Shown here: positions 17,209 through 17,996 of the stretch, piece after piece
Position numbering within the stretch: position 1 is the stretch's first letter
Layout: each line of letters begins with the position of its first letter
Source: Pseudomonas cichorii
GTDB lineage: Bacteria > Pseudomonadota > Gammaproteobacteria > Pseudomonadales > Pseudomonadaceae
Assembly: GCF_015471405.1 (NCBI RefSeq)
Contig: NZ_BLVZ01000006.1
Location: 186,001 to 250,000 of the forward strand
Length of the DNA stretch: 64,000 bases
Reading direction: 5' to 3'
The notes under the pieces: model-generated
The model's input: the letters and a program-made list of their open reading frames with translations, nothing else
The model's database searches: none
What the model was told of the DNA's origin: nothing
Program-made: the position numbers and the translations under genes

Positions 17209-17240
17209 CTAATGCCGATCAGTCAAGGCACACACAAAAC

Positions 17241-17331
17241 GTGTGGGAGGCAGCTTGCTGGCGAAAAGGCCTCAAAACCGGCAGATATTCTGCGCCTGTA
17301 CACTGAAGTCGCCAGCAAGCAGCCACCCATA
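17241..17331 (+). repeat. REP-like inverted repeat pair
   Basis: GTGTGGGAGGCAGCTTGCTG at 17241 is answered by an inverted, slightly degenerate copy at 17309-17330 (TCGCCAGCAAGCAGCCACCC). Between them lies the first copy of the 56-bp direct repeat. A transcript would fold into a long hairpin after the GNAT gene, perhaps ending transcription from both sides. Confidence 0.8.
17265..17320 (+). repeat. 56-bp direct repeat, copy 1
   Basis: Differs from 19384-19439 at three of 56 positions, same orientation. The two copies enclose the DUF6124 gene and three unrecognised small genes. Confidence 0.85.
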
Positions 17332-17339
17332 TCCTGATT

Positions 17340-17579
17340 TCAGCGCACTTCAATCCCGTTCAGAGAACGATCAACCACGGTCTTGGCCATTTCCACCAGA
17401 TGCATAACGGAAAGTGCCAGATGTCGTTGCGTTCCACTCAAATGGTCACTGCTTTCATAGGCTGTGGCGGCAGCGCAACTGAGCAGTTCCGAGGCATAGC
17501 TCAGGGATTGTTCAAGGGTGGTGTTCGGGCTGGAAAGGGAAGGTGGGTCAAGGGGTAACGCGGGTTCGGCATTGAGCAT
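17340..17579 (-). CDS. DUF6124-family small protein
   Basis: 79 residues. LEQSLSYASELLSCAAATAYESSDHLSGTQRHLALSVMHL...VDRSLNG is the pattern of a Pseudomonas family of short, mostly helical proteins (DUF6124, close to DUF3077) that occur in many copies per genome and whose role is unknown. The start ATG 17579 has GGAG-like AGGAAT a few bases before. Its 5' side carries an extended foldable region (see 17580-17800). Confidence 0.7.
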   Translation of the reverse strand: MLNAEPALPLDPPSLSSPNTTLEQSLSYASELLSCAAATAYESSDHLSGTQRHLALSVMHLVEMAKTVVDRSLNGIEVR

Positions 17580-17800
17580 GTTGGAGATTCCTAACGCTAT
17601 GGGGGATGCCGCCAGTTCTCGCTACTAAACGATAAAGGCGGCGGCTGTGCGAAGGTTAGTAGACCGGGCGTTAGGATCCGGCGCATCCGAAGATGCCCTA
17701 CGCACAGCCACCATCAAGTGCAGTGAAATATTTCACTGACGGTAGGGTGACACCATGCGGACCAACGACCCGGGCTACTAAACCCGATCACTGCGATGCA
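17580..17800 (-). promoter_or_regulatory. Structured leader region of the DUF6124 gene (candidate cis-regulatory RNA)
   Basis: Read on the minus strand, GGCTGTGCG (17709-17701) pairs perfectly with CGCACAGCC (17651-17643), enclosing a second hairpin GCATC-TTCG-GATGC (17696-17683). GTTTAGTAG occurs twice (around 17784-17776 and 17630-17622) and its complement CTACTAAC once (17662-17655), so the two copies compete for one partner. The upstream pairing extends through CCCGGG at 17774-17769 with CCCGG at 17668-17664. An 18-base perfect palindrome sits at 17721-17738. I see structure; a regulatory role is inference. Confidence 0.5.
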
Positions 17801-17996
17801 GCGACCGGCGCACATTAGTGACCTGAATGGGGAGGCGCAAGGGGGTGGGATTTTCTAGGAAATTTCGTTCGAGAGAAAGGGAAAAGTCGTGTGTCAACGC
17901 CGCATAGCTTGAATTGGTAAGCACTTGATGAGAGCTTTCGGCCAAAAGCGGTCAATCGGATTAGACTGCACCGAAGTCCTGTCAGAGATTTCTTAC
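17801..17996. other. Non-coding stretch before the zinc-ribbon gene
   Basis: Together with the structured leader this makes 417 bases without a gene. Beyond the leader I see no clear promoter or repeat; the in-frame extension of the next gene into this area (to 17925) has no supporting ribosome site. Confidence 0.4.

Follow-up and report, generated by a model that had tools for sequence, protein, structure and literature searches.

A chromosomal C4 antisense RNA upstream of a DUF6124 gene in Pseudomonas cichorii and its target-matched relatives

The analysed window, a 64-kb stretch (64,000 nucleotides) of Pseudomonas cichorii DNA, carries on its minus strand a small gene coding for a DUF6124 protein, preceded by a structured leader that matches the C4 antisense RNA of Rfam (RF01695) at positions 17634-17718, with 73.7 bits for a gathering score of 45 and an E value of 1.7e-12 in a scan of the whole window. 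C4 was the sole family above its gathering score in that 64-kb scan, and a riboswitch reading of the leader was dropped on this ground. The elements follow one another in the order a1-b1-C4-a2-b2-small ORF, with b2 sitting where ribosomes would bind to translate the ORF, its AGGA being 9 nt from the ATG (17577-17579). The features, listed in the direction of the putative transcript, are as follows.

17849..17879, minus strand: promoter-proximal element CTTTC..TG..GAA.TTTCC.AGAAAATC, a candidate regulator site, from conservation
17812..17840, minus strand: putative promoter, TTGCGC (17835-17840), 17 nt, TAATGT (17812-17817), from conserved position only
17767..17818, minus strand: c4-a1b1-like target element (RF03163), 46.3 bits, E 2.5e-10
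17771..17785, minus strand: a1 target GGGTTTAGTAGCCCG, from sequence, with in-step differences in the orthologues L060 and L167
17762..17769, minus strand: b1 target GTCGTTGG, just after a1, 6-nt pairing with b' including one G-U
17634..17718, minus strand: C4 antisense RNA (RF01695), from the covariance model, above the gathering score
17668..17676, minus strand: b' loop TCCTAACGC, 9-nt complementarity to b2
17654..17663, minus strand: a' segment TCTACTAACC, able to pair with a1 and with a2 given one mismatch or bulge
17622..17630, minus strand: a2 target GTTTAGTAG, from sequence, with C instead of A in L060 and L167
17589..17597, minus strand: b2 target GCGTTAGGA, overlapping the Shine-Dalgarno AGGA at 17589-17592
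17340..17579, minus strand: DUF6124 (PF19619) protein of 79 aa, putative target gene, Pfam 59.7 bits for a cut-off of 27

The first-pass annotation of this stretch had described a foldable leader, in which an outer stem encloses an inner hairpin and a repeated segment competes for a single complement, and had read it as a switch. Both helices are borne out, GGCTGTGCG (5' end at 17709) pairing with CGCACAGCC (17651) around a GCATC-TTCG-GATGC hairpin that starts at 17696. The repeated segment GTTTAGTAG does occur twice, at 17783 and 17630, and the two copies correspond to the C4 targets a1 and a2. Its complement, said to lie inside the structure, holds in part: the exact CTACTAAAC is absent between 17560 and 17850, but a near-complement, CTACTAACC, is present from 17662 and pairs with GTTTAGTAG over 7 running nucleotides, after which a mismatch or bulge is required. 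Beyond these contacts, the leader harbours a b'/b2 pairing of 9 nt that covers the ribosome-binding site, the b1 site and the conserved upstream element at 17849-17879; with a duplex energy of -14.4 kcal/mol at the window locus, b'/b2 is a stronger contact than those noticed earlier.

The window RNA belongs to the C4 family. Folded alone, it reaches -42.4 kcal/mol compared with -26.9 +/- 2.8 for 200 shuffled sequences (z -5.6), none of which was as stable (0/200). Across 75 distinct sequences, 97.7% of the cells in the C4 stems are paired in an alignment fitted to the C4 model, which favours pairing, compared with 31-44% in slid controls, and double-sided changes are seen at 19 of the 25 pairs. 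These counts were drawn from 80 matches at 75 chosen loci, a selection that does not include the own-genome loci L008, L016 and L025. Conservation of the three-stem fold by compensatory changes is strongly supported by these alignments. Conversely, a covariance model built from the 25 C4 RNAs of the own genome retrieves the C4 of phage P1 (56.8 bits, E 2.2e-11).

The likeness to the c4-icd-ant system of phages P1 and P7 is not limited to the covariance model, the three-stem fold and the a' and b' segments, but extends to the flanking sites, a1-b1 before C4 and a2-b2 after it, b2 in both cases lying at the ribosome-binding site. In the P1 record, a1, b1, C4, a2, b2 and icd are annotated in the same order as in the window, and the gap between the last base of the C4 match and the start of the ORF measures 47 nt in P1 and 54 nt in the window. 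Furthermore, a GGU is present at 17712, the position equivalent to the annotated 5' end of P1 C4, and by analogy the mature form would span 17637-17712. In contrast to P1 and P7, the window cassette is chromosomal and belongs to a set of about 25 genome copies with diverged b' loops. Its small ORF codes for DUF6124, which is not detectably related to the Icd protein of the P1 immI operon. Directly behind this ORF lie a dispersed repeat and an acetyltransferase gene in convergent orientation rather than an antirepressor gene. The window locus is a chromosomal, multi-copy, target-matched C4 variant without adjacent antirepressor. With regard to the dispersed repeat, it occupies 17210-17329, directly behind the DUF6124 gene, has the arms GCTTGCTGGCGA/TCGCCAGCAAGC and recurs in several copies, 87-93% identical, both in the own genome and in genome G018; we take it to resemble a REP/REPIN element.

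The survey of the own genome yielded 25 C4 RNAs, 21 c4-a1b1 matches at E <= 0.001, of which 10 are above the curated cut-off and the window's is below, and 15 DUF6124 matches, 14 of which start 71-199 nt after a same-strand C4. With 46.3 bits for a gathering score of 46.7 (permissive settings, 1 kb), the window element falls 0.4 bits short of RF03163 membership, although it shares with c4-a1b1, as described in passages of PMC2864571, a hairpin and the a1 and b1 sites upstream of C4. Four C4s (L003, L006, L009 and L024) precede BRO-N-like ORFs, as judged by eye and, for L009, by a scan of the protein; further ones lie before other small ORFs or remnants. At L004 (C17:104911), the C4 pairing region is followed by a short leader ORF and then by a protein carrying a QslA (LasR antiactivator) domain, 41.2 bits. 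The tandem C4s L008 and L016 (C8:293979-294369) have an identical b' loop, and no separate target gene accompanies the upstream copy.

The pairing between b' and b2 was compared at 86 of 92 loci, L018 being parsed by hand, while L008 (no target) and L067, L068, L073, L083 and L147 (unparsed) were left out, and then at one locus per distinct b'. For these 60 distinct b', the pairing run averages 8.57 nt with the own b2 and 5.87 nt with swapped ones, and the corresponding values for the stretch preceding C4 are 8.50 and 6.83; in neither case did any of 20,000 permutations reach the own pairing. The a'-a2 duplex energy behaves likewise, with a mean of -9.5 for own and -5.5 for swapped pairs among 15 distinct a' (0/20,000). 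When the 86 loci were reduced to one for each of 27 clusters of dissimilar b', the b'-b2 difference persisted (8.52 vs 5.94; 0/20,000), and the b'-b1 pairing was also locus-specific (0/20,000), while a control stretch inside the gene, 47 nt starting 130 nt behind C4, gave 6.00 vs 5.65, with 1216 of 20,000 permutations reaching the own pairing. These matched differences support by covariation that a' and b' fit the flanking target sites locus by locus. Covariation in the leaders is what the first-pass annotation had suggested looking for, and it was found here with tools other than R-scape in a sample of loci.

Orthologues of the window locus add a small example of such matched change. Relative to the window, both L060, from Pseudomonas capsici, and L167, a syntenic locus in genome G018 whose flank beyond the gene is the same as in the window, show G instead of U in a', and in a1 as well as a2 they show C instead of A; these differences may go back to one common event; L061, from P. 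cichorii, agrees with the window at the a', a1 and a2 positions.

How far this matching keeps the copies apart depends on the set of targets considered. Across many genomes, the C4s are selective in part: of the 60 distinct b', 31 have their longest run (ties included) and 25 their best energy with the own b2, and of the 15 distinct a', 4 have their best energy with the own a2. Within the own genome, where 22 of the 25 C4s were compared (L008, L022 and L025, without intact target, were left out), the summed a and b energy ranks the own target best of 22 for 20 C4s (0/20,000 permutations), b alone for 18 and a alone for 5; in the reverse comparison, 17 of the 22 targets are matched best by their own C4. 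Some loci pair weakly, the b2 run being 5 at both L020 and L022, and the C4s of L020 and L024 fit a foreign target better than their own. For the most part, the diverged b' loops would direct each C4 to the target belonging to it. In phages, P1 and P7 C4 are kept apart by a 4-nt difference (Citron and Schuster 1990, in a passage of PMC5320573).

Many cassettes share more than the RNA and its targets. A degenerate pattern of the upstream element, searched with up to 2 mismatches, has 19 matches in the own genome, while the reversed pattern has none. At 17 of these sites a same-strand C4 follows within 300 nt; the two others lie in a promoter stretch without C4 (C17:77257) and, at L018, some 290 nt past the C4. 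Over the 92 C4 loci, the 25-nt core scores at least 16/25 in 83, the other 9 being without a good match. A consensus promoter scan gave no site at threshold. From the element at 17849-17879 and the TTGCGC-17 nt-TAATGT arrangement, we infer that the transcript starts upstream of the whole structure.

Such a transcript would hold all parts of a cis-acting leader switch, in which a' of the uncut mRNA would pair alternately with a1 and a2, never with both, and so set access to the Shine-Dalgarno sequence, perhaps in response to a signal. This reading, close to that of the first-pass annotation, appears quite unlikely to us: the central hairpin belongs to the C4 family, which in P1 is processed and acts on target mRNAs (passages of PMC5320573), and the window is without any other RNA family above cut-off. 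What stands of the earlier interpretation is a regulatory RNA before DUF6124 with repeats competing for one complement; a mere two-fold leader switch is not supported, the hairpin being C4 with covarying contacts to flanking targets, one of them over the Shine-Dalgarno sequence.

The explanation that we consider best, and hold with good confidence, is that C4 represses the translation of DUF6124; the pairing is supported by covariation, and repression would be its consequence. A promoter near 17812-17840 would drive one transcript comprising a1-b1, C4, a2-b2 and the DUF6124 ORF. C4 folds into the three-stem form that covariation strongly supports, and RNase P may then, if the P1 analogy holds, free an RNA of about 76 nt starting with the GGU at 17712. 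The a' and b' segments would pair with a2 and b2, and b', when bound to b2, would cover the Shine-Dalgarno sequence and so stop DUF6124 translation. The upstream a1-b1 copy would give C4 another place to bind, possibly serving as a decoy or in autoregulation. The gene would normally be silent, its product being made once C4 is outrun, titrated or lost. Repression may occur in cis, with C4 still joined to the mRNA, or after excision, as described for P1, the sequence being compatible with both. For P1, literature passages describe processing of C4 by RNase P to about 77 nt and a block of translation.

The DUF6124 protein of the window is under purifying selection, with dN/dS values of about 0.20 and 0.14 relative to two orthologues. 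L105, for which a stop was reported, and L141 are absent from the protein alignment. Its predicted fold is a two-helix hairpin with a mean pLDDT of 85, rising to 94-98 over most of both long helices. Among solved structures, none is similar in fold at E <= 0.001 and none was found by sequence (best E 1.4). DUF6124 is named in none of the 5.39 million open-licence papers searched and DUF3077 in one of them, and a report elsewhere is possible. A defence-family reading was set aside after PADLOC gave no match. Three Pseudomonas plasmids carry partial matches to the window protein at 44%.

Since C4 is known from phages, having first come to light in phage P1, the cassette might be a decaying piece of phage immunity with no present role. 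In this direction point L018, L022 and L025, which are without intact target gene, and 8 viral contigs that carry relatives of the protein, each with a C4, as putative phage genes; L005, a diverged copy of the protein, also matches phrog_6327 weakly (23.2 bits). However, the window protein has no match in 50,697 phage records and none in PHROGs, which rules against its phage origin, and its purifying selection, the maintained matched changes of C4 and target and the upstream element common to cassettes are features opposed to decay. We therefore regard a prophage remnant as highly improbable.

The small gene occupies the position of icd in P1, whose product is reported to block cell division (passages of PMC8201110, where P1 C4 is described as well), and the arrangement of an antisense RNA beside a small protein gene resembles that of type I toxin-antitoxin systems, toxicity being putative here. 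With many copies of a small protein in this position, DUF6124 could inhibit growth when C4 is lost, as does P1 Icd, and C4 would be its RNA antitoxin. Homology to Icd was rejected, since hhalign gave a probability of 0.3% for the DUF6124 alignment against the single P1 Icd sequence, and P1 Icd matches NF033153 while the window protein does not; PADLOC offers no support either. Moreover, at L059 in the own genome and at L137 the cassette promoter is joined directly to the DUF6124 gene, the C4 being missing, and strong toxicity is hard to reconcile with C4-free genes that have retained the promoter. A toxin module is, in our opinion, an unlikely alternative.

C4 RNAs were found in 275 of 298 genomes of the genus and in 97 of 148 genomes of a family sample. 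In 40 genus genomes, the copy numbers of C4 (0-42) and DUF6124 (0-43) are correlated with a Spearman coefficient of 0.85, uncorrected for kinship. Among 80 chromosomal DUF6124 loci collected by protein search, 54 have a C4 according to the own-copy model and 26 do not; about 23 of these 26 are, by eye, longer DUF3077-like genes with different upstream regions, and L074 ends at a contig end. In genome G369, labelled as another genus, the b'-b2 run at the 15 C4s compared (of 25) is 8.40 for own and 5.51 for swapped pairs (0/10,000 permutations), the own b2 having the best energy in 7 of 15. The C4s of this genome (L169-L197, odd numbers) stand before stand-alone ORFs, many BRO-N-like by eye, and the one scanned is BRO-N.

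Genome G309 behaves differently. Over its 15 C4s, all of which were compared, b' pairs strongly with the upstream stretch, the own site being best in 13 of 15, but b'-b2 pairing is weak (361/10,000) and own a'-a2 pairing was not seen (1138/10,000). This result speaks against simply carrying the model over to all genera. At L180, L186, L188 and L196 of this genome, C4 lies directly upstream of VgrG-like ORFs, assigned by scan for L180, whose protein carries Phage_GPD and Phage_base_V, and by eye for the others; the b' loops at these four loci fit the upstream stretch and not the ribosome-binding site.

With regard to earlier work, C4 and c4-a1b1 are catalogued for Proteobacteria and phages in passages of PMC2864571, and the C4 of P1 and P7 is described in passages of PMC12197685. 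Multi-copy chromosomal C4 RNAs are already published for Acinetobacter: passages of PMC5320573 report multi-copy C4-like sRNAs of A. baumannii, seen as processed transcripts, and discuss phage or host targets without settling them. The Group 1 C4-like sRNAs described there resemble the present set in their many chromosomal copies and variable a' and b'; in contrast to their unsettled targets in those passages, most C4s of the window genome have a downstream target supported by covariation.

Taken beyond the single locus, we can tentatively propose, as a possibility falling somewhat short of a probable one, that in Pseudomonas a phage immunity RNA became a genome-wide set of address-coded antisense switches. 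A genome would hold tens of C4 cassettes, every one of them using a private b'/b2 code and many sharing a promoter element; they would be selected against cross-silencing and would control lineage-specific small-protein families (DUF6124/DUF3077, and BRO-N in a related genus). The b'/b2 matching names a likely target for most copies, so that two-sided mutations can test the question. The uncharacterised DUF6124 family gains a clear regulatory setting, and antisense pairs that are for the most part selective can be found side by side within single genomes, as a collection provided by nature.
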